In this document: positions 21,477-47,287 of the stretch, piece after piece
Numbering within the stretch: position 1 is the first letter of the stretch
How the letters are laid out: each line of letters starts with the position of its first letter
Program-made: the position numbers and the translations under genes
Assembly (NCBI GenBank): GCA_019915015.1
Contig: JAHBBC010000014.1
Coordinates: 62,001 to 126,000 of the forward strand
DNA from: Auriscalpium vulgare
Lineage: Eukaryota > Basidiomycota > Agaricomycetes > Russulales > Auriscalpiaceae
Length of the DNA stretch: 64,000 bases
Direction of reading: 5' to 3'
Notes under the pieces: generated by a model
What the model saw: the letters and a program-made list of their open reading frames with translations, nothing else
Database searches by the model: none
Told to the model about the DNA's origin: nothing

Positions 21477-21491
21477 GTTAGCAAGTAGACG

Positions 21492-21790
21492 TGTAGTGTA
21501 CTCGGACCGGTCGTCCTACTTGGACGACCAGCATGTGCGGAACCGCGGGTTCCAGACAACGCTCGGAGCTGGGCTGAGGTGAAGGGGCTGTTCCTGGGGA
21601 ACAGCCTCGGATCATTGATGGGATGGGATTACATAAGGGTAGCATATATATATCCGTCCTCTCCTTGGGAGAGGACATCTTTTGTACTTTCACTACTCGC
21701 GCCCCATCGAATCATACTCAGCCCACGTCGATATACGTGGGTACGATTCTACAGGCGTGATCACCTAAGTACAAGGGCATCGACGTTACA
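21492..21790 (+). repeat. Element B 5' LTR, with five perfect stem-loops
   Basis: 299 bp, TGTAGTG...GACGTTACA, same as 47306-47604. Contains a TATATATAT box at about 21645. Five perfect hairpins: 21509-21529 (8-bp stem), 21539-21553 (6), 21586-21606 (9), 21656-21676 (9), 21722-21741 (7). Confidence 0.95.
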
Positions 21791-21840
21791 CTTTTTTGAA
21801 TCCCACCGGATTTAAAAGCGAATATATCGACCCTTCGAAC

Positions 21841-25174: not shown

Positions 25175-25245
25175 GACCGTCCCGAGGACAGACTCAGACC
25201 GCCCGAGTCAACCAAACCTCGCCTCAGACACGCACGGGAAGTGGC

Positions 25246-27411
25246 ATGGATAGACCACGCCCCGATAGTACTCCTCGCCCGCAGAAGCTACAGGGCCGTC
25301 CTGGTGGACAGCCCCGTACCGCGGTAGGAAAAGATGGTAAATCCATCACGTGCTTCGGATGCGGACAGACGGGGCACTATTCGAGTGACCCTACTTGCCC
25401 GCAATTCGGCAAGCCCCGCATGTTTGCCTCTCGAGTAGTCAATGACAACTCGGAGGACGACCAAGCGGGAGAGCCTGAAGCGCAGAACGATGAGTCATCC
25501 CCTGGGGACGACGAGCGCGCTGACGACGACAAAGAAGCCCCTGAGGAGCGCTGGGCGTCGTCAGATGATTACGTCGAGGATATGGAATACCTAGACACCC
25601 CATCCGACGATGATGAGGGGCCCCCACTCCGACTCGCCAGCATGCGCATGTTCTCCATGAGAATTACGCCCGCTAGCGACGAAGAAGACAATGTGTCGTT
25701 AGGCTCCGAATCTGACGACATGCCTGGGCTAGTCGAACTGGGCCCAGCCCCCTCGCAGCAAGCTGTCGATCTGGGACGGCTACTAGGGGAGGATGCGGTC
25801 CAATACTTGCAGCAGAGAATCCCGATGGGATTACCTGGCCCCGCATACCCTGGACCGAGCTTTTCACGCCCAGTGCCAGGGCCTTCTCGCGTGAGCAGAG
25901 TTGCGCCCCCAGGGCCATACTCCCCGCCTGACTCCCCGGGAACTGGGATCGAGAACATGATTCGCGCCGCGCTCTCGCTTGGTCGCGCCTCGAGCCCAAC
26001 CTCCCGTGGTATGGCGCCAGGGGCTGTTGGTAGCGACGAGTTCGCCCAATACCCTCGGGAGTACGGATTCACGTACGCACAGCACCAAGCGGACGGTTTA
26101 CGAAGGTGGCGAGGCACCGGACACGCGCTGCGTCCTGGGATACCTCACCCCATCACAAATGATGGGCACTTCCCCGCTCGCCTCATGTTTGACGAGGAAT
26201 TCGCAGACAGCGTCCCTACGGACACTTATCTGCTGCGCGACTTCGAGCTCGGCTCCATCGAGACCGTGAACGTGCACGCCGTCGTGTGGCGACGCTACGT
26301 GGAGGACCGCGTGAGCGCGGCCCTTTTTCTCGGGGTACCGATTGAGCTCGAGCACACATGGATGTTTGACCCCGTGTACGGCCCCATACACGCAGCTGAA
26401 TGCTTCATCTGCCTCGTATTCGTGAATCACCGGCGAAACGCGCGACACGGTGATGGATCACTCGACGCAGCGGAGGAACTCGGTCAATCCATGCGGAATG
26501 ACCGATACGACGCCGGCTACAACGCTGGGTTGGCCACCGCCGCACGAGCCATCATGCACTTCTCGCGATCCGAGCAGGCAGAGGCTCGTCAGGAAGTAGC
26601 GTACAATGCGGGCATGCGCAACGCATTCAACATCGTCGCCGCCCTTGAGCGCCGTCGGCCCCGTGGACCAACGTTCCCCGCCGGCGACGACGCAGACAAT
26701 GCATGGCCACGTCATGCAGGGGGAGGGGACGCAAATGCGGATGTAGCACCACCGGCGCCGTCATACGTAGCACCCCCAGCGTACATAGACGAATTATCAC
26801 GACGCACTACGGGCATGATGCTATTCGCCATGCGCGCAATGCGCTCGCACCTGCCAGCAGTGACACCTGAAGTACCCCGCTGGGTATACAGTGCCAACTT
26901 GCGTCGTAACGTTCCAAATGAGGAACAGCCCGATCGCAACGCGACACGACATATAGTCCTCGCCGCCGATGTTAACATCAACGGCGAGACACTATTTGCG
27001 CTGTTCGACAGCGGAAGCACCACCAATGGCATAAGCCCGGAGGCAGCCACGGTATCCCGGGTAGGGATATTTGAACTTGTAGACCCAATGACGCTCCAAC
27101 TGGGCGTCGTAGGATCCAAGTCAAAGATCAACTACGGGACCAGGTGCCGGATCAAAGTGAGCGGGCAAGAAGTCCCATGCTATCTCGACGTGGCCAATAT
27201 AGACCACTACAACATCATACTGGGCACCCCGTTCCTCCATGGCAACAAAGTCGCTCTCGACTTTGGCGACCTGTCAATCACGATCAACGGCCAACGCATC
27301 GTTGCACTGACTCCTCAGGAGGAAGCCCAACGATCGCGACGGCACTGGAAACGTGACCGTGCTCCGATGGCGACTGCGCGTGTAAACGCGGCGCGCCCGA
27401 TGCTGGAATGA
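25246..27411 (+). CDS. Element B zinc-knuckle and protease ORF
   Basis: 721 aa. N-terminal zinc knuckle CFGCGQTGHYSSDPTC has CX2CX4HX6C spacing, two residues longer than the usual X4 before the last Cys. An acidic disordered region (about 60-220) follows, then a roughly 250-aa segment of unknown function (TYLLRDFELGSIETVNVHAV, YDAGYNAGLATAARAIMHFS). A retropepsin-like domain has LFALFDSGSTTNGIS (DSG about residue 587) and NIILGTPFLHGNKVALDFGD. It ends LE then TGA, after which the same frame stays open into reverse transcriptase. Confidence 0.85.
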   Translation: MDRPRPDSTPRPQKLQGRPGGQPRTAVGKDGKSITCFGCGQTGHYSSDPTCPQFGKPRMFASRVVNDNSEDDQAGEPEAQNDESSPGDDERADDDKEAPEERWASSDDYVEDMEYLDTPSDDDEGPPLRLASMRMFSMRITPASDEEDNVSLGSESDDMPGLVELGPAPSQQAVDLGRLLGEDAVQYLQQRIPMGLPGPAYPGPSFSRPVPGPSRVSRVAPPGPYSPPDSPGTGIENMIRAALSLGRASSPTSRGMAPGAVGSDEFAQYPREYGFTYAQHQADGLRRWRGTGHALRPGIPHPITNDGHFPARLMFDEEFADSVPTDTYLLRDFELGSIETVNVHAVVWRRYVEDRVSAALFLGVPIELEHTWMFDPVYGPIHAAECFICLVFVNHRRNARHGDGSLDAAEELGQSMRNDRYDAGYNAGLATAARAIMHFSRSEQAEARQEVAYNAGMRNAFNIVAALERRRPRGPTFPAGDDADNAWPRHAGGGDANADVAPPAPSYVAPPAYIDELSRRTTGMMLFAMRAMRSHLPAVTPEVPRWVYSANLRRNVPNEEQPDRNATRHIVLAADVNINGETLFALFDSGSTTNGISPEAATVSRVGIFELVDPMTLQLGVVGSKSKINYGTRCRIKVSGQEVPCYLDVANIDHYNIILGTPFLHGNKVALDFGDLSITINGQRIVALTPQEEAQRSRRHWKRDRAPMATARVNAARPMLE
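27409..27411 (+). other. In-frame TGA between protease and reverse transcriptase of element B
   Basis: The frame is open on both sides: 25246-27408 before the TGA and 27412-28079 after it. A perfect GCCAC-CTCG-GTGGC hairpin lies about 35 nt downstream. Either a readthrough stop or an inactivating mutation. Confidence 0.6.
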
Positions 27412-28079
27412 GGGTACGCGGCGGGATCTACGAAAGTAGAGCCTGCCACCTCGGTGGCCCCTCCCATGCGGGAGAACCACACCAAGCACCGCGCACGGAT
27501 GAAGATAGGAGAAGCGGAGGAAGCCCAAAAGGGACTCCCAGTGCCCGAGGATCCTGAGGATCCCCTGGCGCCACTCCGGAAACGATGGATGGAATCGGAG
27601 GCGGACCTGATGTGCCCAGTGCCCCCAGAGCTTCCCCCGTTCCGAGAAGTTAATCATCGCATTAATTTAATCGATGAGAAATTACGCAGCTTGTACCACC
27701 TCCCCCGATGCCCTGACTCGCTTAAACCACAACTCATGTTGAAGATAAAGCGATACGTTGAGGCGGGATGGTGGGAAATGCGCACAGCCCCACAAGCCGC
27801 CCCGTTACTTTGTATACCAAAGAAATCGGGGAAACTGAGGACTGTGGTGGATGCGCGCAAGCGTAACGACAACACCCATAAGGATGTTACGCCTTTCCCT
27901 GACCAGGATCAGATCCGAATGGACGTCGCACGCGCGAAGTTCCGGTCCAAGATTGACATGAGCGACGCGTACGAACAAATACGCATCGAACCCGATGATA
28001 TTTGGAAGACAGCGTTCGCGACAATCTACGGCACGTTCGTGAGCCATGTTATGCAGCAGGGAGACTGTAATGCGCCCGC
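27412..28079 (+). CDS. pol: Element B Pol, N-terminal part of reverse transcriptase (interrupted by element C)
   Basis: Continues the protease frame. RT blocks: PRCPDSLKPQLMLKIKRYVE, APQAAPLLCIPKKSGKLRTV, VDARKRNDNTHKDVTPFPDQ, KIDMSDAYEQIRIEPDD (first catalytic Asp), WKTAFATIYGTFVSHVMQQG. Broken in the codons NAPA at 28079 by element C. The chain resumes at 41630 as TFQRLM, and the insert plus its 4-bp duplication (13,554 bp) is a multiple of three, so the frame is kept. Confidence 0.92.
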
Positions 28080-28736
28080 TGATACGCTATCACCCGGGAC
28101 GGACCCTAGCGGGGCGTGCGGCGAGTGCCTCACAGGACAACAACCACCAACACTGCCTCCTATACGTCGCGATCCAGTCCGGGTGACTAGTCTTGCTGAG
28201 GGGGGAAGGTGTTCGTGTCGCTGTTGCGCTTCGTGCCCTCCCCGCGGTCGTGCGGGGCCACCTCCTACCGCCTAAACACCAAACTAAACACTCACCTGCC
28301 TGGGGATGCCCTCTACGGGATCCTCCTCCGAGTGCTTCGCACCCGTGTGCGAAGCGTCCGCCTATGGGCCGTCGCACCCCCTCTTGCCTGTCCGCCTGCC
28401 TACCTGTTCCCACATCGGTGGGGTCCTTCCTTCCTAAGTCTGGTAGCGCCTCAGGCTACAGTTTCTGTGAGGTAAAGGGTGTGGGTGGCTTGCGCCGCCC
28501 ACAGGTTGATTGGGTTGCTACGTCTCGCGCAGCTCCCTAAGTAGTGGCTCTACCTACGTCGCTAAGCCCCCCCGATCTAGCCCGTTCCGGTGATCCGTTC
28601 CGTCGCCAGTCCCGGTTGCTCCTGGGTCGCCGGACCACGTTCCCATCACCCCCGCTCCCGCGACCCTGCGCCTCGCATGCTGCTTCCCCGTCTCGCGACG
28701 TCTCGCTACACGCTTGCCCGCGGCCTGAACCTATCA
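28080..28736 (-). repeat. Element C 3' LTR
   Basis: 657 bp, TGATACGC...CCTATCA; matches 40973-41629 with two differences. Contains a 9-bp perfect hairpin at 28334-28355 and one TCGCGA-CGTC-TCGCTA motif at 28693-28708. Confidence 0.95.
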
Positions 28737-28864
28737 TTTCTCCCCCCAACTGAAACTGCAACTGTCCCCAGTTGCCAGGAACCGTGCGGAAGCGGCATAT
28801 AAGGGCTCGCGACCTTTCGCGATAACGTCGCTTGTAGCATCCCTTTGCCGATTTCTGTCCCGCG
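28737..28864 (+). promoter_or_regulatory. Element C 3' PPT and promoter of antisense gene 1
   Basis: On the minus strand the G-rich tract TTTCAGTTGGGGGGAG (28755-28740) next to the 3' LTR is the polypurine tract. On the plus strand a TATAAG box (28798-28803) is followed four bases later by TCGCGA-CCTT-TCGCGA (28807-28822), 43 bp before the ATG of gene 1. Confidence 0.6.
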
Positions 28865-30113
28865 ATGTCCCTCCCCGCAGCGTCTGCCACCGCCGACAAC
28901 CTCGACCTCCTCCGCCTGTTGACGCAGGCCCCCTTCGCTGGTTTTGACCTTGGGGATGCCGAACGGGAGGTTGCGCTACGTCTAGAGTGGGCCGACAAAG
29001 TCAACCAGCTCGTGGTGCGTGCTGGTCCCCGACCGCGTCTTTTCCCGGCTTGGCTGATGATGAACTCAATTCCAGACCCTTTCTTCAATCCGCGCGTCCC
29101 GCAGCCTGCGCGATCTTGCCTTCCACTTCACCTCGCCGATCCTCGAGTTCATGGTGAAGCTCGTTCCAGCGTCCGCCCCTCTCGCCCAGCGCTTCGAGGG
29201 CACCCTCATGCGTACCCTCCCCGACTCAGCGCGCGCCAGCCCGCGGTGGCCCCAGATGTTCTCCCCTTTCCCTGCCGACGCTACCGACGCGGAACTCCAC
29301 GTCTTGATCACCATCGTGGAGGCTGGGCTCTGGACCGTGTACTACTTCGGAGACGGTTCTGTCGAATCCTACCTCCATGAAATCACGGAGTTGCATGGCG
29401 CCTTCCCCACCCTGCGTCCTCAGGGGATGCAGAGCTGGCTCCTACGTGATTTCGACGCCCGGGCCGTCCATGGGATGTTTGTTATTACCCGCGAAGACGC
29501 CGTGTGCCGCGCCCTGGCCTACCACGTCCGTGGTGCCTCCAGCTCCCCCCACTCTCGTGCCTACGCGGGCCGCCTCACCACGGGCGTGGTGTACTACCTA
29601 TTGGGGGGCCTCGCGGAGGACTCGGTGGATATGTTACGGGACTTTACCACCATTTCCGAGGCCTTCGACACGTTTCGCGATATTTGGGCGGACTGGCCAC
29701 TGGTGTTGGATCGCCTCGACATGCGCTGGGCCGCGATGGCAACCTGTATGGGCGGGATGCTGGACGCATGGGGATTAGGGTCCCGCCTCCTGGCCAACCT
29801 CCAGCCCGCAGACTTCCTGGTCCAGGATATCAGCGTGGCCTCGATTCGCGCCATCGAGCAGATCAGTTCTGCGCGCCTCTCGCACATCTCCTCCTCCCAA
29901 GCCATAGCTGAGATACCCCTAGGCTTCGATGCCATAGTCCATCCCTCGGACCAGCCGGGCCCTCTTCCCTTCCCCGCGCACCCCACGGTACCAGCGCCGA
30001 CGGCCCCCTCCGCGTCTCCTACCTACGCCGGGGAGACACCGCCGCCCATCGCCAGCTCGGAAGAAGTCGAGGAGGGGGAGGTGATCGAGCTTCTGATGGA
30101 GCGCGAGGAATAG
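28865..30113 (+). CDS. Element C antisense gene 1, unknown function
   Basis: Two exons, 28865-29014 (50 codons) and 29076-30113, around a 61-bp GT-AG intron (29015-29075); 395 aa. I do not recognise the family. Exon 1 is a short helical segment (NLDLLRLLTQAPF ... WADKVNQL). Exon 2 opens RDLAFHFTSPILEFMV, then LAQRFEGTLMRTLP, EAGLWTVYYFGDG, FRDIWADWPLVLD, and ends in a Pro/Ser-rich and acidic tail (SSEEVEEGEVIELLME). No signal peptide or membrane segment seen. Gene 2 next to it shares the intron position and the motif HFT-P-L--M ... LA-RF--T---T-P, so the two are probably tandem paralogues. It lies opposite to gag-pol, so its intron is not removed from the retrotransposon's own genomic RNA. 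Confidence 0.75.
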
Positions 30114-30451
30114 GTATATTCCCGGGCCAATGTCTGTAGAATGTTCCATAGCTATTGAAATGGAACCAGGAGCCATGTGCGGCTTCCCCCTGTCCCTGTG
30201 CCACGTTTCGCGATGCCTTGCGATAAGCTCCTGGGCCCATGCCGGTGGCCCCGTCTGGGTCGCGATCTGTCGCGATAACCCACGTTGGCCGGAACTCCGG
30301 CGAGACCCTCGTGTTTTGGTCTTCGCGCTGTATCGCGACGCCGCGATGGTGTGCCTCTTTCCCTACTCGCGCCGCCTATATGAGGGGGCTGCGACGATGG
30401 CCTTTTCAAAAAAACCCTCAACGCCCCAGTCCGTCCGACTACCTCCTCCAC
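30114..30451 (+). promoter_or_regulatory. Promoter of antisense gene 2 with three bipartite CGCG motifs
   Basis: 338 bp holding TCGCGA-TGCC-TTGCGA (30208-30223), TCGCGA-TCTG-TCGCGA (30260-30275) and TCGCGC-TGTA-TCGCGA (30323-30338), start-to-start distances 52 and 63 bp (about 5 and 6 helical turns). A TATATGA box follows at 30377-30383, 69 bp before the ATG. Confidence 0.6.
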
Positions 30452-31633
30452 ATGCAGGCCGTCCTACTCCGCGCGTTTTCGCGTTTCCGGCTGTACCAGC
30501 TGTTGATACATCCGGTTGAGGTGCCCTTGCCTGGTGCCGACGCTTCCTCATTTCCCGCGGCCGCCGTTGCCTGGCTTCAGGAGATCTCCGACCTATTGGT
30601 GCGTCGTCCCGCGGCCCTCTTTTCCCTCATCCCGGCCTCGTACTGACGTTGTCTTCGCTTCTTCCCCCCTTTTCAGCAGGACCATCGCGAGACGTCGCAT
30701 TTTACCCTACCGGCCCTCGCGTCCATGACCGTCGTCTCGACGCTCTCCTACCTAGCGGAGCGCTTTCCCGAAACGTTCGAACAAACCGCCCCCATTCGCG
30801 CGAATATCGTAGGAAATATTCCGTTCGGAGGGGACAACGCCCCGGGACAGCCACCCAGCGTCGCTCTGCTTCCTCACGTGGTCCATGTGGACTCCTTGGC
30901 CCACCTGGTGGAGCGCTCCGTTTGGTTGCTGTACCGTCACCAACTTCACGGCCGGGCAACTTTCGAGGTCAACTTGGCAGCGCTGTTCGGCCCCGAGTTT
31001 GCCCCCCGTCCCGACGGCCTTGCCACCCGTGTTGCCGAGTTATTCCTTCGCGACCTCGATCGTTTGAGTGACGACCTCGACCACGCCGACGGGCTGGTCG
31101 GGGCCCTCATGCTCCCCTTGAACCGCGCCGTGATCGGAATGACCCACCCCCGCGACATTGGCGTCCTCGACTTCCTTGCGGCCGCGAGTCCCTCGTTGCA
31201 GGCTGCCCATCGTGCGAACGTCCGTGAAGCCGCCGACTATCTCGTTCCCGGCCTCAAGTTGGTCGCGGAGCTTCGCGACTTCGTTTGGGCGGACCAATTG
31301 AACGCCAGCCACCTGCGCCACGCCGTCACTCGCCTCGAAGGCACCGCGGGAAAGCTGCTGTACGATGCCTGCGAAGTTGCCGCGGTCCTCGACCACCTCG
31401 CCGGTGCCGGTCCTATGCGCCGTATGCTTACCGCCCTTCCCTTCCCGCCGCTTACTCACCGAGTCATCCGCCGCGGCTCTATCGCGTTCTCGTGGGGGGT
31501 CCCCAACCTTGTTGAGGTCGTGGGCCCGAGGCCTCCTGATGCCCTGAGTCGACGGGCTGGTCGTAGGAATGGGGGTAACCGCGCCCGGACTCCCGCGCCC
31601 AATGGTGCGTCTGGGTCCGGTGCGCCCGCGTAG
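30452..31633 (+). CDS. Element C antisense gene 2, paralogue of gene 1, unknown function
   Basis: Exons 30452-30598 (49 codons) and 30677-31633 around a GT-AG intron; 367 aa. Exon 1: FRLYQLLIHPVEVPLPGAD ... WLQEISDLL. Exon 2 opens QDHRETSHFTLPALASM, then LAERFPETFEQTAP, SLAHLVERSVWLLYR, LRDFVWADQLN and VAAVLDHLAGAGPMRRML. It ends with a basic Arg/Asn-rich tail. Alignment by eye with gene 1 conserves the exon-1 length, the intron position just before the HFT-P block, the Arg-Phe-Thr spacing after it, and a later RD-WAD block. No known domain recognised. Mostly helical and probably soluble. Confidence 0.72.
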
Positions 31634-31912
31634 CGAGCGATTCCTGTAATTTGCCCAAGGCGCCCTTAGGGCCCAGTAATGCCATTCCGTTCCCTATCCC
31701 TTCTTCTTGACTCGCGCGCGAACGCTCGCTAAGCCGTGTGAAGGTAAGCGCCGCACCTGTCGCGGCCCGGCGGGCCCGCTCTGCTTCCACGTCGGAAGCA
31801 AAAACCCACACGCTGGCGCGGCGCCCCGTCTTAACGCGACGCGTTGCGCCTCGACCTCTCCGTCTCTCTCTTTCCTCCCCTCACCTCTCCCTATCTCCCC
31901 CCTTCCCTGGCC
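31634..31912 (+). promoter_or_regulatory. Spacer and promoter of antisense gene 3
   Basis: No ORF of its own. Contains ACGCGA-CGCG-TTGCGC (31834-31849), a degenerate copy of the bipartite motif, and a pyrimidine-rich tract (about 31857-31909) directly before the ATG, common in basidiomycete promoters. Confidence 0.45.
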
Positions 31913-33613
31913 ATGTCTGCGTTCTCCCGCCCTATCAACCTCAGGAAACGGCTGTCCGCCGTAGAAGCGCTCGTCGCCTCCCTCCCCACAGTCGACTCCG
32001 CCCACTACGGCGAGTTCGCCGCGAACTGGGAGTCGGCCACGGTGAGTGCCCACGGCCTCTCGCTCCCGACGCTCTGCTGACCCTCCCTTGTGTCCAGTCC
32101 GCCTATGCTGAGGTGTTGGGGGAGGACCCCCCGCCGTCCGAGGTGCTGGACAGGATCGGGGCCGTGTCCGCCGTTGTCGACGCCTGGCCGTCCTCCGGCC
32201 CCTCCCCCACGCCGTCCTCACCCGCCTTCCCCTACTCCACTCCCGTCGCCGCTCCCCTCTCCCGTCAGGCTGGCAAGCGGGCCCGCGCCGACAGTGCCCT
32301 CCCCGCGCCTTCTGTCCGCCCCCCGGTCTCCTCCACGCCTCGCCGCGCCGCCGCCCGCGCTTCCCCGCCGCCCACCAAGCGCAACCGCGAGTCCGCCCCC
32401 TCCGAGGCTGACGCCGAGGCCGAGGTCGACGAGCTAGATGAGGCGGGGGACCCGCAGGAGCCCGTCGCGCAGCGCACCCGCGGCGCCACCAAACTCCCCG
32501 CCCCCCGATCAGTCCCCGCCGCCGCCAAGTCGAAGGGCAAGGGCAAAGCCGTCCGCAGTTCCAAGCGCCCTGCCAACGTCCCCTCCGGCTCCCTCGTGCC
32601 TCCGCCCGCCGCCACTGTCCCCTCTTCCGAGGCCGGCTCCCCCGCGCCCGCCGCCGACCCTTCCACCTCCGTCAAGGGCGCCAAGATCCCCGTCGCTGAC
32701 ACCTTCCCGGGCCGCCGCCTTCAGGTACGTCGCCCTTTTCTTGTCCGTCGTGTTGCGCCGCTCACACTCCGACCCTCAGGCTTCCGCCCCCTGCTACCGC
32801 TGCGCCACGATGGACTCCCACCCCACGTGCTTCTTCACGGACGTCAGCGGCCGCCAGTGCCATCGCTGCTTCGTGGGCCACCACAAGTGCGACGACGGTG
32901 TCCGCGGGACTCACTTCTACGTGGTGGGCAGCGACGGAGTCTCGCAGGATGTCGACCCTGCCGGCATCCATGTCCGTCCCCGGTCCTCCGCCTTCGACTG
33001 GGCCGACCACCCCGACCCTGCCGGCGCCGTCCCCATCCTCCGCTACGACTCCCCGCCGCAGCTTTTCCGGACCTACAACGCGCTCACGGAGGAGCTCAAC
33101 ACCATCAGCGTCAACTACGCGACGCTCGACGCCCGGGCCCGCGGCATCGTCGCTGAGCGGAACTGGGTCTGGCGGACCCTGCAGCAGCTCGGCGACCCCG
33201 CGTTCCCCGCGCCTGCCGGGGGCCTCATCTCGCCGCAGGTTGGCCCCTTCGATCCGCCGCGCCGCCTCCCATTCCCTGCTCCCTCCGCGTCGCGTGCCGC
33301 TTCTCCCGCGCCGGCCAGGCCTGCCTCGCGCCTCCCCCTCGCGCCGCCCTCGTCGGCTCTCATCGCCTCTTCCCTCCCGCTGCTTAGCGCCGCCGTCGTG
33401 GCTCCCCTCGGTCGCGCTTCTCGCCTTCCTTCCCCCGTGCCTCCGGTTGCTCCCGCTGCGCCCTTCTCGCCGCTCGCCTCTGCCGCTCCTCCCGCGTCGG
33501 ACCCTGCCCCCGGCCCTACCATGCCTACCGCCGCCGCTCCCTCCTTCGAGGATGTCGGCACGCCGCCCTCCGCCGCGGCTGATGGTCCCGCTGACCCCGC
33601 GCCCGCCGCTTAG
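31913..33613 (+). CDS. Element C antisense gene 3, zinc-cluster-like protein
   Basis: Three exons (31913-32041, 32098-32724, 32780-33613) joined across GT-AG introns of 56 and 55 bp with frame kept; 529 aa. Exon 1: LRKRLSAVEALVASLPTVDS. Exon 2 is disordered with basic patches (RRAAARA, KSKGKGKAVRSSKR) that could act as nuclear localisation signals. Exon 3 begins with a six-cysteine array, CYRCATMDSHPTC ... CHRCFVGHHKC, spacing C-X2-C-X8-C-X9-C-X2-C-X6-C (about residues 257-290). It resembles, but is not identical to, a Zn2Cys6 cluster. A helical segment (YNALTEELNTISVNYATLDA) and a long Pro/Ala/Ser-rich tail follow. A DNA- or RNA-binding role is inferred only. Confidence 0.72.
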
Positions 33614-34085
33614 CCGCTTGCGAGCCTTCTTCAAAAGGAGTCGCCCCTGCTTCAACAGCAGAGGGCCTTGGTGCTTCGATGCGGGGGGCGTTCCTCGTGT
33701 CCTAGGTGGGGGTTTCGGCGTCTCGCTGTCGTGTTGTCCGCTCGTTATCGGTCTGTTCATAGTTGTTCGCTATCCGTCGCTACCTCTTTGCTGTGTACAT
33801 AGAATTCGCTATCCTGCTATGTTGTGAATAGAGTCCATTGCTTGTGTCACAGTGTGAGCGTGTCCTATCGCGTTTCCGGCGCGACCTCAGCCTTGTTCCA
33901 GACCCTTGAAGCCTTAGTCGGTGCCTGCCCAGTCCGAGCTTCGCTAGCGCTCGCGACCTCGACTTATCGTCCTGACTCGTCTCCATCCGTACTTCCAGCT
34001 GTTCAGTCCTAAATACCACCGTCTAATCCTCCCCCCAACTGAAATATCGACTGTCCTCAGTCGCCGTAGTGCTGGGCGGTACTTT
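33614..34085. other. Spacer between antisense gene 3 and pol, with second polypurine tract
   Basis: No gene seen. Holds TCGCTA-GCGC-TCGCGA (33941-33956). At 34029-34066 it holds a diverged copy of the sequence next to the 3' LTR (28740-28777; first 16 nt identical). On the minus strand this is a G-rich purine tract directly after the pol stop. Confidence 0.6.
34029..34044 (-). promoter_or_regulatory. Second polypurine tract of element C, just after pol
   Basis: Minus strand TTTCAGTTGGGGGGAG, identical for 16 nt to the tract beside the 3' LTR (28740-28755). It lies about 7.6 kb from the 5' end of a 13.55-kb element, so it could serve as a central plus-strand start. Confidence 0.5.
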
Positions 34086-37000
34086 TTAGACGGTGATCTC
34101 GTCGTCCTTGTCATCGTCTTCCCTGGTGGGGTCGTCTACTTCCTCTTCATGAATGGCATCGTGATCCTGCCTATCTTCATGAAGTAGCTCGTCCACCCTG
34201 GACTGTGGGACGTCCAGAAATTCGGGCAACTCTGGCAGCGCAATGTTCGTTCGCGCGAAGTAAGGCAGGACGCGAAACTCCGCGACCGGTCGGTCGAAGA
34301 GCGCACCGTGGAGGTCCGCAAGCACGTAAGGTCCTCCTTTCCGTCGGCCAATTACCACGAACGGTCCATCGTAGCGCGGAAGCATTTTTCGATCTAATGA
34401 CTTCTCGTACCGCGTGAACCGTAGGAGGACCAAGTCGCCTCTCTTGAAATTGTAGTCGCGAATCGTCGCTTCGTGGTCACGTTCAAATTTTACCGCCGCG
34501 ATACGTCGCGCTTCAAAGACTTTGTCGTGGATGGTCCTTAACTGGGCTTTTCTCTTTTGTAGGGCCATTGCCCTGCGCGCTATGAGGTCTGTGGAAGACA
34601 GTAGAGAGTCGGGCGGAGGCATCAAGTATGAAGCCTCGATGATATCCAGCGGCATTAGCGGCTGCGTTCCTGTTACCGCGAAGTATGGCGAGCAGCCCAT
34701 CCTCCGCCTGATCGTTATCCTGTCTGACCAGAATACCGAGTACGCGACCGATGACCATTTTGCAGCATTTCCATCGGCTGCCTTGTAGAGCGCTTGACGT
34801 ACGTCGAAGTGAGACCGCTCGACTATTCCGTTGGCTCGCGAATTATATCCCGATATTCGAATGTGCCGGACTCCATACTTATGCGACAGGGATTCCAAGG
34901 CCGACACGAACGGTGCGCCGTTGTCCGTGACCACTTCTCGCAGGGCGCCCCACCGGCACAAGACGTCTTCGAAAATCCATTTCGCGATGGCGTCCGCCGT
35001 CTCCGCCCTTAGCATTCTCCACTCTGGATAGTGGGTTACGGAGCAGCGTCCTTGCACGATGTATTTGAATCCGCCGCTTGCTGGCATATGCATGGTGTCT
35101 GCATACATCTTTGCGAAAAGGTTCGCCGGCGTTGCCACCGTTGGCGGTATCAGGCTGTGGCGAACTAGTCGGGTTTCGCAAATATGGCACGTTCTCACCC
35201 ACCAGGCCACGTCTGCGTCCACGTATGGCCACCAGAAACGCTCCAACAGCATCATCCGCGTCGCGTAGACGCCTTTGTGTCCGACATCGTCATGAGCTGC
35301 TTTGAGGACCGCGATACGTCGGTCTCCTCCCAGCACGAGTTGGTGCCTGCCTTGGTGGTGCCTTTTGAAAAGGCGGTCCCCATCCCTGAAGAACTGGAGC
35401 GCGTATCGAGCGAAACGAGCGAACTGTTCGTCGGTCAAGTCCGCCGGCCGCGCCAGGGTCCCTAACCAGTCCCTGACTAGTTCCAGCCGCTTGTCAGCTT
35501 CATGAGCCTTGTCTGATCTGGGAACATCGCGATACGTCGCGTCCTGTACTGGTGCGGGTTGCATTTGGACCGTAGTTGCCCAGACGTCGGCCGGTTCATC
35601 GTGGGAGCGCCGGGCCTCCTCGCGACGTATCGCGTCCTGGCTTGAACCAGCCCCATGTTCGTCTGGTATGCTTCCAGGCCTCGTCCATCCATCTTGCCGT
35701 CGCGAGGCTCTCTCTTGCGCTGTCTTCGGGACTACCATGTTTACGATATGTGCGAAACCATACACCGCATCAACCCAGTCGTCGAAGTCGTCTTCCTGTT
35801 CCAGAGCGTCTCCTGGTTGCCTACGCCTCCTGGATAGGCCGTCGGGCCCGTGGAAGAGTCCCGGCACGTGCACTAGCTCAAAATGGAACATCAGGATGCC
35901 TATAATCCACCTGTTCATACTGGCCGATGGCTCGAGGTCAGGATTTTCCAGCATGCCTTTGATATACCTGGCGTCGACCTCAATGGTCAGGTTCCTCACC
36001 CCTATCAGGTAGACTTTAAGGGCCCGCAGGGCTCGAAAAAGACCATAGAGCTCCAGCTTGGGCTGCGAGAACCGCGCTTCGCGATCGTTTAGCGCGATGC
36101 TACCAAATCGAGAATATCGGCGTCTCTTCCTGTCTTGGGGAACGTTGGGGTCCGCCTGACTCAATAGGAAACCCACCGCGATGTACGAGGTGTCTACCGC
36201 TAGGATCACGGGGGCCTCCGACGTGTAATCAATCGGTAGGAGCGCTGGTGATGCGAGGACTGCCTCCTTGAGGTCCTCCATAGCTCGCGACTGTTCGGGT
36301 CCCCATTCGAACGGGACGTCCTTCCTCGTCAGGTGTGTCAAGGCATGGGCTCGGTGCGCAAAGTTACGGATAAAGATGCGCAGGACTCCGACTGTCCCCA
36401 AGAAAGCCCGTACGTCTGAGAGGTCCGTGCACGGCCCCCAATTGCGAATCTTCGCGACCTTTTCTTCGTCTGCCATCCTTCCTTGCGGTGTGCAGCGATG
36501 CCCTACCACGTAGAATTCTGGTACGCACAGCTGTGATTTCCATCCTGAGAACGTGCCATGACAGTAGCGCATTCGTTGGACTACCCTGTTAACGTTGTTA
36601 AAGTGTTCCCATACGAACCGCCTTATGCCGTTGTTGCCGGGGATCGTTTCGTATCCTCCGCCTTCCGTCCTGTAGTCCGAGTCCGGCCCCTTCAGGGGGA
36701 CGTCGTCTATAAAAGGCACCGTAATATGCGGGATTTCCGGTTGGAGAATAAAAGTCACGTCGTCGTGGAAGATCGGGACGGAATTCGTCCACCCCATAGG
36801 CAGGGTCACCAGCCGTTTTGCGCCGTACGGCGTCTGGAAAGTCGTGAGGTCCCTTGAGGCTTCATCTAGTCTCCTTTCGTCATAGCCCACGTAGAGGTCC
36901 AGAATTCCCCCGCACGGCCGCCCCGCAAACTGCTCCGCCAAATGATCTGGGAAGGGGGGTACTCCTGAGTGCGCGATGGTCACCGCATTCAGGGGTTCCA

Positions 37001-37871
37001 GACTATGGACTATACGGAGGCTGGTCCCGTCCTTCTTAACCACACAGAACCACCTAGAGCGGTACGACGAGTTTGAGTCCTCGTAGACTCCCGCGGCGAT
37101 CTTGGTCTTGATGAGCGCCATGACCTTGTCGTATATCCCTGGCGGAATCGGAATATTTCGCTGAACCCACGGCCGATGCGGAACTACTGGTATTGTGACG
37201 GGGGGGAAGAAGTCTTCTCGGAAGCGCCCCCGCTCCGAGTCGTCCCAGGCAAATGCCTCGTTTTGTGCGCACATAAACGCATGCATGAGCTTCCTTTCTT
37301 CCGGCCATAGGAAATCTCCGTCGTGGACTCGGTCAAATTGTTCGCGACGTTCCGCGGTGTACCTTCCCGTGGGTACGAAGTCCGGTGGCTTCTCTGGGAG
37401 CGGCGGCATATCCGCCAGGGGGTCCCCTCTGATCTCTCTGAGGATCCGGAAGTGCTCCGGCAGGTCCGTACGAATGGGCTTTACCTTGAGGTGTGCTGGC
37501 TTGTAACGCTTCTTCGTGGCCGCAAAGACTTCGCGCTGCATCGCGGTCGGCTGTAGCTCACCTCTGTCCGTTTCCTCCTCTCTTTCTCTCCCACTCTCGC
37601 CGTCTCCCCAGTCTGCCGCCGTCCAAATAAACGTCCCTGCTCTTGCTCGTTCCCCCTCTTCCTCTCCTTCTTCCGCTCGCTTCGCGAACACTCCCGCGTA
37701 TTCCTCCGGTAGGTCGCACACTGACAAATAAGCTGACTGCACATCTTCGATTGTAGGCGAGGATTCGAGGTACACCAGGGATTCCATTCTAAGAGTATCA
37801 GGCTTATCGGGCTCGAACCCCACGACCAGCCCTACCTCCTCCTGGTCCTCCAACAAATCCTCTAGTCGCGA
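34086..37871 (-). CDS. pol: Element C Pol (RT-RNase H-integrase)
   Basis: About 1,260 aa, open from the frameshift site at 37871-37877 to a stop at 34086. Reverse transcriptase: YRSRWFCVVKKDGTSLRIVH, GGILDLYVGYDERRLDEASR (first catalytic Asp), FQTPYGAKRLVTLPMGWTNS, and VPFIDDVPLKGP, where the YxDD box is FIDD. RNase H: VILAVDTSYIAVG, KLELYGLFRAL, IEVDARYIKGM. Integrase: HDDVGHKGVYATRMM...CHICETRL zinc region, MYADTMHMP, VVTDNGAPFVSALE, ANGIVERSHFDVR (D, D, E). The C-terminus (RRKGGPYVLADLHG, FRVLPYF) is a GPY/F-like module followed by an acidic tail. No chromodomain seen, unlike elements A and B. Confidence 0.93.
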   Translation of the reverse strand, partial: SRLEDLLEDQEEVGLVVGFEPDKPDTLRMESLVYLESSPTIEDVQSAYLSVCDLPEEYAGVFAKRAEEGEEEGERARAGTFIWTAADWGDGESGREREEETDRGELQPTAMQREVFAATKKRYKPAHLKVKPIRTDLPEHFRILREIRGDPLADMPPLPEKPPDFVPTGRYTAERREQFDRVHDGDFLWPEERKLMHAFMCAQNEAFAWDDSERGRFREDFFPPVTIPVVPHRPWVQRNIPIPPGIYDKVMALIKTKIAAGVYEDSNSSYRSRWFCVVKKDGTSLRIVHSLEPLNAVTIAHSGVPPFPDHLAEQFAGRPCGGILDLYVGYDERRLDEASRDLTTFQTPYGAKRLVTLPMGWTNSVPIFHDDVTFILQPEIPHITVPFIDDVPLKGPDSDYRTEGGGYETIPGNNGIRRFVWEHFNNVNRVVQRMRYCHGTFSGWKSQLCVPEFYVVGHRCTPQGRMADEEKVAKIRNWGPCTDLSDVRAFLGTVGVLRIFIRNFAHRAHALTHLTRKDVPFEWGPEQSRAMEDLKEAVLASPALLPIDYTSEAPVILAVDTSYIAVGFLLSQADPNVPQDRKRRRYSRFGSIALNDREARFSQPKLELYGLFRALRALKVYLIGVRNLTIEVDARYIKGMLENPDLEPSASMNRWIIGILMFHFELVHVPGLFHGPDGLSRRRRQPGDALEQEDDFDDWVDAVYGFAHIVNMVVPKTAQERASRRQDGWTRPGSIPDEHGAGSSQDAIRREEARRSHDEPADVWATTVQMQPAPVQDATYRDVPRSDKAHEADKRLELVRDWLGTLARPADLTDEQFARFARYALQFFRDGDRLFKRHHQGRHQLVLGGDRRIAVLKAAHDDVGHKGVYATRMMLLERFWWPYVDADVAWWVRTCHICETRLVRHSLIPPTVATPANLFAKMYADTMHMPASGGFKYIVQGRCSVTHYPEWRMLRAETADAIAKWIFEDVLCRWGALREVVTDNGAPFVSALESLSHKYGVRHIRISGYNSRANGIVERSHFDVRQALYKAADGNAAKWSSVAYSVFWSDRITIRRRMGCSPYFAVTGTQPLMPLDIIEASYLMPPPDSLLSSTDLIARRAMALQKRKAQLRTIHDKVFEARRIAAVKFERDHEATIRDYNFKRGDLVLLRFTRYEKSLDRKMLPRYDGPFVVIGRRKGGPYVLADLHGALFDRPVAEFRVLPYFARTNIALPELPEFLDVPQSRVDELLHEDRQDHDAIHEEEVDDPTREDDDKDDEITV

Positions 37872-40800
37872 AAACCCTCCACCCCCTGCTTCTGGGTTCG
37901 CGAGATGCGCTTGCGGCCGCGTGGAATAGTGGGGATTGACGCCATGACTCCCGTGTTTGGGTCCGTGATCGTGATTGTCTGCCTCTCGTCTGCAAAGTTT
38001 TGCACGGTACTTCCCGTGAGAACGTCAAAGGGCCTCCCCAGGAGCATGTCGTACGCCGGGTTGCGGATGATATGCACCTGTACGTATAGCGTTATACCCC
38101 CAATCTTCATCGGGACGTTTCTAGCCAGGCCTAGCGACCTATCGCGACTTTTGTTGGCCGATATCATATCCAGGCGAACGTTCGGATCGTAATGCAGCCC
38201 GAGGTAATGGCATACGTCCTCGGACATGGAAATAATCTGCGACCCGGGATCCACGACTGCCTCGATGTGCGCTTGGTTGTCGACTAGTGGCAAGATCGAA
38301 CGGAGGGCCAGCGATTCCTTGGCGACCTCCAACGGCTCAGGGTCTGGTTCCCCTTCTCCTGCTTCTCCTAGATCTCCCATCAGAACCTCCACAATGACTT
38401 CTCCTACACGCGTCCCCTCGGGCAACTCCGTCGGCTGGTGTCCCAGGGCTTGCAGAAAGGTTTCGGGCATATGGTCCGCGAATCCCCTCACCACCTTCTC
38501 GTCCTCTCCTTCCCCTTCGTCCTGGTCAAAGTCGAACGGAAAGAGCTCTGGTTCGCTTTCCACCATCGCCTGGACTACTGGTACTCTTGCCTCGTTTGGG
38601 ACCCGCTTAGGGGTCACCACGTTGCGAACTTGAGCGCGTACTTCCGGGGCAATGGACATGAGCTCCCTCTGTGTCAAGGTGACCTCTGCATTCATGGCCC
38701 TCTCATAAACCTTACTTGCTATTACGGGGTCGCGGACCGGGGCGACCTTATTGTATGCTGGGTCCGCCTTGCGCTGCCCCGCGCTTCGTTGGTAACTTGC
38801 CGGCCCTATGTACGTCGCGTCGGGCACCTTCGCGAAAGGGTGGATCGGAGGTGTTAACGGCTCCTCACCCGCTGTGGTGTCTTCGTCGGCCTGCCTTTGT
38901 TTGTCTGCGCTATCCCCAGTCCCCCCTGGTCGGTCGACGGCCTCCGGCTCGAAGGAAACCTGCTTCTTGGCTTGCGTAAACGGCTTCCTCTTCGGAATGA
39001 CCACCTCTGGAACTCGTCGCGATCTTTCGCGCTCGCCAGGCAGCAGCCCTATTGCCTGGGGAAACTCGCCCGCGTCCAGTGCGGCCTGCCGGCGTTCCTT
39101 CTGAGCTTGCCTTTCCGCTCGGGCCGTCAGGAGCACTGCCATCTCCTGCTGGAGCTCCGTCATTCTGTCTTCGTCGGTCAATTGCGGCGTCAGTTGGATT
39201 AGGCCGGCGACCGTCTGCACTTTGGCCGGCACTGGCTCGTAGTCCATCGTCGTCAGCATCATGGCTTCTGACTGTCCGTGTTGATTCCCGGCGTAGTACG
39301 CATCCACACGCTGCTTCAGCGGGCCTTCTCCTAGCGGGATAAGTCCTCCACCCTTCAGAACGACCCGGTTGTTGTGGTCCCTAGATACGCGACCCGTCGC
39401 GATGTAGTCCTGGACCACCATACACTCCCTGACGAAGTGCCCCGTTTGGCCGCAGAAAAGGCATCCTGACGGCCCTCCCTGTCCGCCTTGATTTCCTTGC
39501 GTGGCGCGCGGCTGTTGAGTTCCCGAGGTACCCCCATAACCCCTCTGACCTCCGCCGTTCCCCTGGTTGACGAGCATCCGCGCGAACTGTTCGGCAACCG
39601 CGGCTTTGATTGCTTCTTGAAACTGTTCTATTTTGATTACAGGCTCCGTCGTTGCAACCGCCACTGCCGGTCCTGCGCTGACCGCTGGTACGATTGAGGG
39701 AGTGCCCCTCAGCTCGTACTCTCCTGCCTCTAGCACGTCGGCCATGGGGTACGGTGTTTCTTTATCGTGGTCCGGCAATTTGATCTGCAGTCTCGTCGCC
39801 ACCCTGTTCATGAGGCTGTCCTGGAAAGCGCGAAGGAACGCGATATCGCGCTCACGGGTCGAGATCCTGCTTTTCTTAACCAGGAAGTCGGTGATCGCGA
39901 AGAACTGCCGATAGAATTCGCTGAGCTCGCCGCCGGACGCAATGCCCAGACGGTACCGACTGCCTACGAGCGCGTCCATGTCCGCGATGGTATACTTGCG
40001 GTCCTCATCGGCTCCCGGGTACAGTTTAACAATGGCGTCCTGAAAGTCTTGGTAGGTCTTGGTGGGATCCTTAAACTCCGGCCTCGCTTCCCACTCCTCA
40101 GCCGTCGCGACGTCTAGGTAACGCACTGCATGGCCCTTCTTCGCCGTATCATCCGCTAGTTGAGCCCGGGCAAAGAGATGGTTCAGCTCGTCGAAGTAAC
40201 GCGGTAACTCGCGGGCCTTCTGATTGAAAGACGGTGCGTTGCGGTCCCCCCGGGTAGGCATTGCGACTGGCGCGACGTTGGGCTGAGGCGGTATTGCCTG
40301 TTGTCCGCCGCCTCCCCCTCCTCCACCGCCTCCGCCTCCGCCGCCTCCTCCACCCGTTCCTGTTCCTTGTTGCTGTGTACTCATTCCTGACTGTGTTGGC
40401 GACTTTGGGTTGCTGGGGTTCGAACGGCTTGATGGAGCTTCTTGGGGATTGTTGCTAGCTTCCGCGACGTTTCGCGAAGTCCTATCTTGTAAGGAAACGG
40501 CCCGTCCCCATCCCGGACTGACCCGTTCGTTCCTCGAGCATTCCCCTTCCGGATCATGCCGTGTGTGATGGTCGCTATCGCCACCATCAGAATTCAGAAG
40601 CAAACCTTCTAGTCCCTCGATCGTGACGCGATCCCCTCCTGTGATCAGGGACCTAGGGTCCTCTCCGGCGCGTCGGATCTCCCTACTGAGGGTCGGTCCA
40701 TGCGGATCCTCTTCTTCTGATGGCAGACTTGATAGCGATGAGACTTCCCCCTGTTCGTCTTGTGGTTCCTCGATTTCTGCCTCTATGGCCGCCTGTCGCG

Positions 40801-40882
40801 ACGTATTGCGAGCGTCCGCCCTCGTGGTCCTCTGCGGCTGTGTTCGCGTTGGGAGGTGGGCTATCTTGGGTTTCGGCGCCAT
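37862..40882 (-). CDS. gag: Element C Gag-protease
   Basis: 1,006 aa from ATG at 40882 (MAPKPKIAHLPTRTQ). The N-terminal region is disordered and acidic and ends in a poly-Gly tract (about 178-195). Gag domain: FNQKARELPRYFDELNHLF, VRYLDVATAEEWEARPEF, IASGGELSEFYRQFFAITDF. Zinc knuckle CLFCGQTGHFVREC (CX2CX4HX4C). Disordered middle. The aspartic-protease fold near the C-terminus has AVVDPGSQIISMS (about residue 877), DPG in place of the usual DSG/DTG, followed by AYDMLLGRPFDVL. Protease is thus made with Gag and pol follows by frameshift. Confidence 0.9.
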   Translation of the reverse strand: MAPKPKIAHLPTRTQPQRTTRADARNTSRQAAIEAEIEEPQDEQGEVSSLSSLPSEEEDPHGPTLSREIRRAGEDPRSLITGGDRVTIEGLEGLLLNSDGGDSDHHTRHDPEGECSRNERVSPGWGRAVSLQDRTSRNVAEASNNPQEAPSSRSNPSNPKSPTQSGMSTQQQGTGTGGGGGGGGGGGGGGGGGQQAIPPQPNVAPVAMPTRGDRNAPSFNQKARELPRYFDELNHLFARAQLADDTAKKGHAVRYLDVATAEEWEARPEFKDPTKTYQDFQDAIVKLYPGADEDRKYTIADMDALVGSRYRLGIASGGELSEFYRQFFAITDFLVKKSRISTRERDIAFLRAFQDSLMNRVATRLQIKLPDHDKETPYPMADVLEAGEYELRGTPSIVPAVSAGPAVAVATTEPVIKIEQFQEAIKAAVAEQFARMLVNQGNGGGQRGYGGTSGTQQPRATQGNQGGQGGPSGCLFCGQTGHFVRECMVVQDYIATGRVSRDHNNRVVLKGGGLIPLGEGPLKQRVDAYYAGNQHGQSEAMMLTTMDYEPVPAKVQTVAGLIQLTPQLTDEDRMTELQQEMAVLLTARAERQAQKERRQAALDAGEFPQAIGLLPGERERSRRVPEVVIPKRKPFTQAKKQVSFEPEAVDRPGGTGDSADKQRQADEDTTAGEEPLTPPIHPFAKVPDATYIGPASYQRSAGQRKADPAYNKVAPVRDPVIASKVYERAMNAEVTLTQRELMSIAPEVRAQVRNVVTPKRVPNEARVPVVQAMVESEPELFPFDFDQDEGEGEDEKVVRGFADHMPETFLQALGHQPTELPEGTRVGEVIVEVLMGDLGEAGEGEPDPEPLEVAKESLALRSILPLVDNQAHIEAVVDPGSQIISMSEDVCHYLGLHYDPNVRLDMISANKSRDRSLGLARNVPMKIGGITLYVQVHIIRNPAYDMLLGRPFDVLTGSTVQNFADERQTITITDPNTGVMASIPTIPRGRKRISRTQKQGVEGFRD
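37871..37877 (-). promoter_or_regulatory. -1 ribosomal frameshift site, gag to pol, element C (G GGT TTT)
   Basis: Gag frame on the minus strand: GAG GGT TTT CGC GAC TAG. The heptamer G-GGT-TTT is a canonical slippery site; slipping -1 reads GGG TTT TCG CGA CTA GAG GAT, open into pol. The gag stop follows two codons later. Confidence 0.75.
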
Positions 40883-40952
40883 GTTGATCAGCGACCGGGT
40901 GCCGTCTACGAGGCTGATTTTAAAGCTCGAACACGATCGTCATCACCATACC

Positions 40953-40969
40953 CCTCGCGGTGGGCTCCA
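40953..40969 (-). other. Primer-binding site of element C
   Basis: Three bases inside the 5' LTR the minus strand reads TGGAGCCCACCGCGAGG. The leading TGG pairs with a tRNA CCA end, so tRNA priming is likely. The tRNA was not identified. Confidence 0.6.
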
Positions 40970-40972
40970 AAA

Positions 40973-41629
40973 TGATACGCTATCACCCGGGACGGACCCT
41001 AGCGGGGCGTGCGTCGAGTGCCTCACAGGACAACAACCACCAACACTGCCTCCTATATGTCGCGATCCAGTCCGGGTGACTAGTCTTGCTGAGGGGGGAA
41101 GGTGTTCGTGTCGCTGTTGCGCTTCGTGCCCTCCCCGCGGTCGTGCGGGGCCACCTCCTACCGCCTAAACACCAAACTAAACACTCACCTGCCTGGGGAT
41201 GCCCTCTACGGGATCCTCCTCCGAGTGCTTCGCACCCGTGTGCGAAGCGTCCGCCTATGGGCCGTCGCACCCCCTCTTGCCTGTCCGCCTGCCTACCTGT
41301 TCCCACATCGGTGGGGTCCTTCCTTCCTAAGTCTGGTAGCGCCTCAGGCTACAGTTTCTGTGAGGTAAAGGGTGTGGGTGGCTTGCGCCGCCCACAGGTT
41401 GATTGGGTTGCTACGTCTCGCGCAGCTCCCTAAGTAGTGGCTCTACCTACGTCGCTAAGCCCCCCCGATCTAGCCCGTTCCGGTGATCCGTTCCGTCGCC
41501 AGTCCCGGTTGCTCCTGGGTCGCCGGACCACGTTCCCATCACCCCCGCTCCCGCGACCCTGCGCCTCGCATGCTGCTTCCCCGTCTCGCGACGTCTCGCT
41601 ACACGCTTGCCCGCGGCCTGAACCTATCA
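40973..41629 (-). repeat. Element C 5' LTR
   Basis: 657 bp, direct copy of 28080-28736 with two base differences. Followed by CCGC (41630-41633), the right copy of the target duplication. Confidence 0.95.
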
Positions 41630-44439: not shown

Positions 44440-44583
44440 GATAGAGTAGCAAGGTACCATCAGGGATCATAGATCGCGATCCCGATGGACTGCCATATCA
44501 GATGAGATAAGCAGGGCGAGAAAAGCTTAAAGACGCCTACGGGCGCTTTCGACTTCTCCGTCCCTCGCCCATCTCAATCCAAT

Positions 44584-47190: not shown

Positions 47191-47287
47191 GTGTGGGATC
47201 GGGACAGGGGGAGGGACACGGCGGTCGTCTACAAAAAATATCATCACCACGCAGTGTCGGGATCATCACCAGCTGGAGGATCGCCAT

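Follow-up and report, generated by a model that had tools for sequence, protein, structure and literature searches.

An antisense cassette of three intron-bearing genes in a young Ty3/Gypsy retrotransposon of Auriscalpium vulgare, and the family-specific palindromes dispersed along the element

We analyzed a 64,000-nucleotide stretch of the Auriscalpium vulgare genome (contig JAHBBC010000014.1, positions 62,001 to 126,000; hereafter, the window), in which a long terminal repeat (LTR) retrotransposon, termed element C, carries three genes, g1, g2, and g3, between pol and its 3' LTR, on the plus strand and thus opposite to gag-pol. An initial annotation of the window had described LTRs, gag, pol, a primer-binding site (PBS), and a polypurine tract (PPT) on the minus strand, together with three plus-strand genes interrupted by four frame-keeping GT-AG introns of 55 to 78 bp. 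All of these features were found again, and the gene coordinates given at that time proved to be right. The features of element C, including its open reading frames (ORFs), are as follows.

28080-41629: element C, 13.55 kb, Ty3/Gypsy LTR retrotransposon with gag-pol on the minus strand
28076-28079 and 41630-41633: 4-bp target-site duplication CCGC, flanking element C
28080..28736, minus strand: 3' LTR, 657 bp, first bases TGATA and last bases TATCA, 99.7% identical to its partner LTR
28737..28776, minus strand: PPT and outer copy of a 37-bp repeat (28740-28776), adjoining the 3' LTR, with a hairpin-capable stem
28865-29014 and 29076-30113, plus strand: g1, 395 aa, intron at 29015-29075 (61 bp)
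30452-30598 and 30677-31633, plus strand: g2, 367 aa, intron at 30599-30676 (78 bp); probable paralogue of g1
31913-32041, 32098-32724, and 32780-33613, plus strand: g3, 529 aa, introns at 32042-32097 (56 bp) and 32725-32779 (55 bp)
34029..34065, minus strand: inner copy of the 37-bp repeat, which resembles a PPT; it lies where pol ends and shares 84% identity with the outer copy
34086..38024, minus strand: pol ORF, with reverse transcriptase (RT), RNase H (RH), and integrase (INT) domains
37862..40939, minus strand: gag-protease ORF, with a zinc knuckle and an aspartyl protease (PR), overlapping pol by 163 nt in a different frame
40952..40969, minus strand: PBS, 18 nt complementary to the 3' end of tRNA-Lys
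40973..41629, minus strand: 5' LTR, 657 bp, with 2 mismatches to its partner LTR

Element C is a young Ty3/Gypsy element, with a TG...CA LTR pair and target duplication, a tRNA PBS, a PPT at the 3' LTR, and the domain order PR-RT-RH-INT. The RVT_1 and rve domains score under the curated Pfam cutoffs, and Ty3 Gag-Pol was the top solved-structure match. When introns were allowed, tRNA-Lys genes accounted for 4/5 genome matches of the tRNA-end pattern derived from the PBS; there were none when introns were disallowed.

We then looked into the cassette itself. All four introns have GT-AG ends and preserve the frame, and, by comparison with the branch-point consensus, three of them contain a branch-like CTGAY and the fourth a CTCAC. 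TATA-like words precede the starts of g1 and g2 by 67 and 75 bp, respectively. The g1 and g2 proteins resemble each other (z score of 5.4, 0/500 shuffles as good, BLASTP E value of 0.004 for exon 2), and their intron falls at the same position, after codon 50 in g1 and codon 49 in g2; judged from these sequences, the two genes look like ancient duplicates. The g3 protein has a six-cysteine cluster and basic, proline/alanine-rich arms. Zn2Cys6 clusters have the spacing CX2CX6C...CX2CX6-8C; the second half of the g3 cluster agrees with it, whereas the first loop is longer (∼8 to 10 residues versus 6). None of the three proteins had a Pfam match at E values up to 1. In database searches, which scored only the candidates having most words in common with the query, g1 had a single match, an Auriscalpium vulgare (Russulales) protein 87% identical over 43%, and neither g2 nor the g3 zinc region had a relative.

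The whole genome (51.6 Mb in 96 contigs) was searched for further copies. A DNA probe spanning g1 and g2 gave 41 matches at 96 to 100% identity (best 40 of 67 candidates scored). Loci matching the g2 protein numbered 47 (59/59 candidates scored), with all main-exon matches, short exon pieces aside, at 92% identity or more; 42 of the loci lie within 5.5 kb of a 37-bp repeat among those listed, and the remaining 5, on contigs beyond the repeats listed, each have a g1 match nearby. Matches to g1 were all at least 70% identical (best 105 of 181 candidates scored), and those to the g3 zinc region were at least 85% identical apart from one fragment at 61% (51/51 candidates scored). The 37-bp repeat had 122 genome matches; among the 100 of these on which pair counts rest, at least 29 pairs showed the 5.27- to 5.30-kb spacing of a full cassette, at least 5 were ∼1.8 to 1.9 kb apart, at least 8 had other distances, and at least 1 was a cassette-less junction. 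The cassette is a stable component of the element: a one-copy accident was rejected because the cassette recurs across genome copies, and the prospect of many copies, raised with the initial annotation, held. The flanks of copies L001 to L034 point to a 4-bp NCG[C/G] integration target, a central CG being present in 27/27 distinct left flanks and 8/8 right flanks against a baseline of 9% of window dinucleotides.

Twenty-one copies picked as full-length pairs (the window copy and L015 to L034) were aligned. All four introns, with their GT-AG ends, were present in 21/21 copies, and intron loss was seen in 0/21. The likely reason for this persistence is that the genomic RNA holds the reverse complement of the introns, which the spliceosome would not recognize; the initial annotation had offered the antisense position as the explanation of intron survival, and the complete retention fits it, as does the same layout in the sister families described below. 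Intact frames were found in 18 copies for g1, 20 for g2, 14 for g3, and 12 for all three genes. With the mutation spectrum taken from noncoding variants, and with the diverged copies L019 and L033 dropped (19/21 copies used), g1 had 18 synonymous and 14 nonsynonymous variants (P = 0.002; 8 and 0 among variants shared by at least two copies, P = 7.5e-5), g2 had 10 and 9 (P = 0.065; shared, 4 and 1, P = 0.045), and g3 had 34 and 40 (P = 0.017; shared, 12 and 18, P = 0.28). Purifying selection is clear for g1 and weaker for g2 and g3, g1 being the best constrained and g3 the least. A dN/dS near 1 across copies, which would have spoken against a functional cassette, was not what we found: pN/pS is below 1, and comparison of the window g1 with nine other g1 copies gave dN/dS values of 0.08 to 0.31. 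Among three deletion derivatives, g1 dN/dS was 0.44 to 0.77, and constraint seems to be relaxed there.

At least two copies, L009 and L010, are devoid of the cassette. Their LTRs differ at 1 and 0 positions, respectively, their target duplications match, and their gag and pol ORFs are long. In each, the outer and inner 37-bp repeats are joined at a different point, with the crossovers inside the repeats; since these points differ, the simplest reading is at least two independent deletions, through template switching or recombination. A cassette-less ancestral form is not favored, given the differing crossover points and the presence of the trio in both sister families. The initial annotation would have been undermined by cassette-less copies had the window copy been unique; the cassette-less copies look like deletions, and g2 at 47 loci makes the window copy anything but unique. 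Further copies without the cassette may exist, and copies L011 to L013 are truncated in other ways. At 12 places, we found a g3 tail 77 to 79% identical to that of element C, with a g1 match beside the diverged tail in 11/12 and g2 missing from the ones that were read, which suggests a further cassette lineage and recombination. Copies L035 to L043 form a deletion-derivative lineage, with g1 present, g2 absent, and a g3 tail of that same 77 to 79% identity.

Two sister families, D and E, carry the same trio. Family D was found from an exact palindrome (see below) that recurs outside the C copies, which led to locus L049 and neighboring stretches. Its pol is 72% identical to that of C over residues 202 to 1297 and 42% over residues 1 to 214, its gag is 47% identical, its PBS is the same, and it bears antisense genes g1', g2', and g3'. 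Family E adjoins a family D copy; its pol is 67% identical to that of C, its gag is 48% identical over the part covered, and it contains antisense g1'' and g2'' along with the zinc region of g3''. A sense orientation of the E cassette was considered and rejected, as it is apparent only relative to a neighboring ORF, E's own pol being antisense to the cassette. The similarity between cassettes, expressed as z scores against shuffles, was 29.5 for g1-g1', 14.2 for g1-g2', 6.7 for g2-g1', and 5.8 for g3-g3', a score that owes partly to low-complexity arms; unrelated protein pairs gave −0.6 to 3.4. Identities were 26% for g1-g1', 34% for g1-g1'' (143 columns), 32% for g1'-g1'', 31% for g2'-g2'', and 41% for the zinc regions of g3' and g3''. 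Exon 1, which ends after codon 50 in g1, ends after codon 49 in g2, g1', g2', g1'', and g2'', and the second g3 intron lies directly before the six-cysteine cluster in both C and D. Full-length g1' matches numbered at least 33, 32 of them free of internal stops (best 119 of 174 candidates), and E-type g1 matches at 35% numbered at least 10, plus one short fragment (same candidates). Since 21/21 copies keep the introns, amino acid changes in g1 are depleted, and gene order and intron places recur in two diverged families, the cassette genes are real rather than chance ORFs. These comparisons are most simply read as a trio inherited as a unit that would predate the split of families C, D, and E. 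Like the C copies, the D copy is preceded by an NCG[C/G] word, CCGG.

In families D and E, too, the 37-bp PPT-like repeat lies at boundaries between genes. Its outer copy in C is variable at 1/37 sites across the 21 copies, and the inner copy differs from it in a compensatory manner in one stem pair; compared with shuffled sequences, the inner copy folds clearly better (z score of −3.9) and the outer one does not (z score of −1.5). Because such repeats occur at the end of pol in C and D and, in D and E, ahead of g2 as well, a promoter or boundary element is as possible a role for the inner PPT as a lentivirus-like central primer.

We next describe a motif dispersed along element C. The most overrepresented hexamer of the element is TCGCGA, with 34 occurrences versus 7.7 expected under a trinucleotide model (P = 2.7e-12). 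Pairs of TCGCGA with at most one mismatch occur 15 times at a spacer of 4 and no more than once at any of the other spacers between 0 and 10, so that paired copies are 10 bp, or one helical turn, apart.

28693..40811: TCGCGA-N4-TCGCGA palindromes, 15 sites with at most one mismatch and 29 with at most two, within 28080-40972; examples at 28807, 30260, 35527, 35620, 39017, and 40462

With at most one mismatch, the palindrome has 0 occurrences in the other 50.5 kb of the window; with at most two, the window holds 32 (30 in element C) versus 5.95 expected. Genome-wide, we counted 1,371 sites (at most one mismatch) versus 217 for a reversed control. In element C, TCGCGA is found in the LTR, ahead of g1 and g2, inside these two genes, and, with all three codon phases represented, inside gag and pol; it is absent from g3 and from the g2-g3 gap.

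The sister families have palindromes of their own, which were sought once that of C was known; a general dyad scan comprised 493,440 word pairs per sequence. TCGCGA is not in excess in family D (14 versus 14.8 expected), where GTCG-N10-SCGA (S being C or G) occurs 37 times versus 7.7 expected, with 2 to 12 occurrences at other gaps; the D palindrome is thus TCG-N11-CGA, weaker than those of C and E. Family E has TCGSCGA, 35 versus 3.8 expected (P = 4e-22). We also examined gag and pol with expectations drawn from the protein and its codon usage (C gag and pol overlapping by 163 nt, E gag being partial). The counts, observed versus expected, were as follows.

TCGCGA: C, 23 versus 5.2; D, 5 versus 4.8; E, 1 versus 2.9
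TCGSCGA: C, 0 versus 1.8; D, 2 versus 2.4; E, 17 versus 2.3
GTCG-N10-SCGA: C, 0 versus 0.6; D, 10 versus 1.4; E, 0 versus 0.6
Reverse complement of GTCG-N10-SCGA: C, 0 versus 0.2; D, 5 versus 1.6; E, 2 versus 0.4

In gag and pol, TCGCGA, TCGSCGA, and GTCG-N10-SCGA are therefore each in excess solely in their own family. Neither these palindromes nor the 37-bp repeats on either side of the cassette were part of the initial annotation, and the same holds for the sister families and the CpG-centered target site.

Element C is the innermost member of a triple nest, the other two members being the following.

21491-28079 and 41630-47604, plus strand: middle nested element, with a GTCC-N4-GGAC palindrome and no match to the trio; its extra ORF at 44506-47190 encodes an 894-aa protein that has runs of lysine/arginine and matches no Pfam family
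15829-47995, minus strand: outermost Gypsy element, with a chromodomain, host of the nest

We propose that the cassette proteins are trans-acting nuclear factors that recognize the palindromes of their own family and thereby keep its copies from being silenced, a reading whose chances we put at about even. Transcripts would start in the 3' internal end of the element, run opposite to the genomic RNA, and undergo splicing, and the spliced transcripts would yield nuclear proteins. The g3 product, with its Zn2Cys6-like cluster and basic arms, would be the likeliest palindrome reader, perhaps with g1 and g2 as partners. With many sites bound along each family copy, the effect, exerted in trans, would be to counter silencing or to activate transcription rather than to serve another step of the cycle. 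A more specific form of the proposal, which we regard as plausible yet doubtful, is self/non-self recognition: the zinc-cluster protein would read a family-private palindrome (∼30 per element, gag and pol included), the TCG/CGA spacing would shift between families (0, 1, and 11), and each family would recognize and derepress itself alone.

Several observations weigh against this proposal. The cassette is not required in cis, since cassette-less and cassette-truncated copies exist; its products would then be supplied in trans by other copies. A dispersed palindrome does not require the trio either, since the middle nested element, which has none, shows GTCC-N4-GGAC 10 times versus 0.38 expected. 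The signal in family D is modest: TCG-N11-CGA occurs 36 times versus 14.6 expected (P = 1.7e-6), a peak no stronger than that of TCG-N4-CGA in the two nested elements pooled (35 versus 14.4, P = 3e-6), some TCG-CGA peaks arise in controls too, and the excess of the reverse complement of the D dyad in D gag and pol is not significant per ORF. Across the 21 young copies, motif CpGs are no more conserved than others, neither class being significant (variable positions in noncoding sequence, 5/36 motif CpGs versus 34/358 others; in coding sequence, 0/16 versus 90/930), and the site at 28807 has one or two mismatches in 7/21 copies. On the protein side, g3 matches no Pfam family and the zinc regions of g3, g3', and g3'', scanned at E values up to 5, gave no Zn_clus match; predicted folds of exon 2 of g1 and g2 were unusable (pLDDT of 33.1 and 31.5); and g2-g2' similarity is weak (z score of 3.9, 1/200 shuffles as good, the unrelated pair g2-g3' reaching 3.4), so that gene position and intron speak for this homology more than the score does.

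Some of these points would fit a scheme in which host DNA-binding proteins read the palindromes as an enhancer or insulator array while the antisense genes aid particle assembly, nuclear import, or integration. We consider it unlikely but worth keeping in sight: besides the trio-less middle element and the lack of a Pfam DNA-binding domain in g1 to g3, the CpG-centered target site shows an intrinsic preference of the integrase or a partner. Yet, with most of pol 67 to 72% identical, each of the families C, D, and E has a different motif, a reader carried by each family is a simpler explanation than three host factors, and the 894-aa ORF of the middle element, with its basic runs, could be that element's own reader. 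A role of the motifs in RNA, as GCGA-N4-TCGC tetraloop hairpins along the genomic RNA serving, for instance, as a Gag packaging signal, appears improbable. GCGA-N4-TCGC occurs 14 times versus 1.1 expected in C and its 4-bp stem could pair, but the loops vary freely in the 14 sites, whose arms are identical by search definition, direct repeats at 10 bp are enriched too (24 versus 2.2), the TCGSCGA of E is too tight to fold, and the arms of the D motif are 11 apart. Composition or codon use could also generate an excess of palindromes as a by-product, and gaps of 3k + 1 are indeed raised in control stretches, one of which (1-13000) reached P = 4.6e-6, uncorrected for 4,352 tests, for an unrelated dyad (TCAA-N5-TTGA, 6 versus 0.41), a further point against our proposal. 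That the whole signal arises in this manner is nonetheless hardly credible to us, as the excess stands against the expectation from protein and codon usage, spans the codon phases, and peaks sharply at one spacer in each of C, D, and E, and as no 4-base dyad reaches five occurrences in the smaller outermost chromodomain element (6 kb).

The remaining alternatives concern the genes. The cassette might act as RNA, its transcripts pairing with the genomic RNA at its 3' end and dampening the element via double-stranded RNA, the ORFs mattering little; such a role has been discussed for plant antisense ORFs in the portion of PMC7264820 available. For element C it seems very improbable in view of the protein-level selection on g1, the introns at matching places, and the frames preserved between families at ∼26 to 34% g1 identity. 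The initial annotation had left open whether the trio consists of element-encoded regulators or captured host genes. Introns and TATA-like sequences of their own give g1 to g3 the look of cellular genes, and yet no match resembled a separate host gene for g1 (best 105 of 181 candidates), g2, or the g3 zinc region, database relatives amount to one for g1 and none for the other two, and the trio is common to three families; host genes riding as passengers is the reading to which we give least credence, and element-encoded regulators are favored.

Elsewhere in the window, we noted two further features.

11200-15451: ORF for a NACHT-type NTPase and, after it, a 129-bp tandem array of WD40 repeats whose copies are mostly ∼94% alike, i.e., a fungal NLR-like architecture with homogenized repeats
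1859-3651 and 4648-6450: direct duplication of ∼1.8 kb, 90.6% identity

If regulators that read their own family's palindromes are indeed encoded here, sequence-specific counter-silencing by transposons would extend to fungi and to retrotransposons, and separate self-control would explain the coexistence of related families. The trio also shows a route by which a retroelement can keep introns over the long term, with genes antisense to the element's genome.

In the plant Gypsy elements Grande, RIRE2, and Retand, ORFs lie antisense in the region from pol to the 3' LTR and are suspected of a regulatory, DNA-binding role, according to the accessible portions of PMC11963269 and PMC7264820, which also report TRP28-domain antisense ORFs in 97% of Retand clusters and present such genes of plant LTR retrotransposons as being without known function. 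Like these Tat/Retand elements, as far as those portions describe them, element C is a Ty3/Gypsy element with a long pol-to-3' LTR region and conserved antisense ORFs; unlike them, it has three intron-bearing genes, a fungal host, and dispersed family-specific palindromes, and TRP28 (PF04195) was not found in g1, g2, or g3 in a Pfam scan at E values up to 1. The cassette offers a trio kept over deep divergence together with a concrete candidate target, the family palindrome. The claim of the initial annotation that no fungal three-gene case was known still stands in the literature searched, with the proviso that a one-gene case exists: Boty-like elements of Botrytis carry the antisense gene brtn (excerpts of PMC7264820 and PMC8365987). 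Boty, as presented in these excerpts, is like element C a fungal element with an antisense extra gene, but it has a single gene and an ascomycete host. For fungal LTR retrotransposons, we found neither a three-gene antisense cassette nor a motif-reading system in the titles and abstract beginnings of the open-access papers listed, the top-ranked ones where there were more.

VANDALs of Arabidopsis are DNA transposons. They have three genes, VANA, VANB, and VANC, and VANC proteins bind short family-specific motifs and remove methylation, motif and protein changing together between families (PMC5735166, in the sections available). Families C, D, and E resemble them in having a short family-specific motif dispersed in the encoding element, more weakly so in D. 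According to the same sections, VANC motifs are noncoding and spread as tandem repeats, whereas the palindromes described here also fill gag and pol, and motif binding and demethylation have been shown for VANC, whereas for element C they are predicted from sequence. No VANC-like protein appeared among the Pfam or database matches of the cassette proteins, VANC sequences themselves not having been compared. Zn2Cys6 (Gal4-type) relatives read the same half-site at different spacings, to which the g3 cysteines (CX2C...CX2CX6C) and the TCG/CGA half-sites at spacings of 0, 1, and 11 bear a likeness, the longer first loop of g3 and its lack of a Pfam match setting it apart. What is new here is that the known antisense-ORF arrangement would be joined, in retrotransposons, to a VANC-like motif system.

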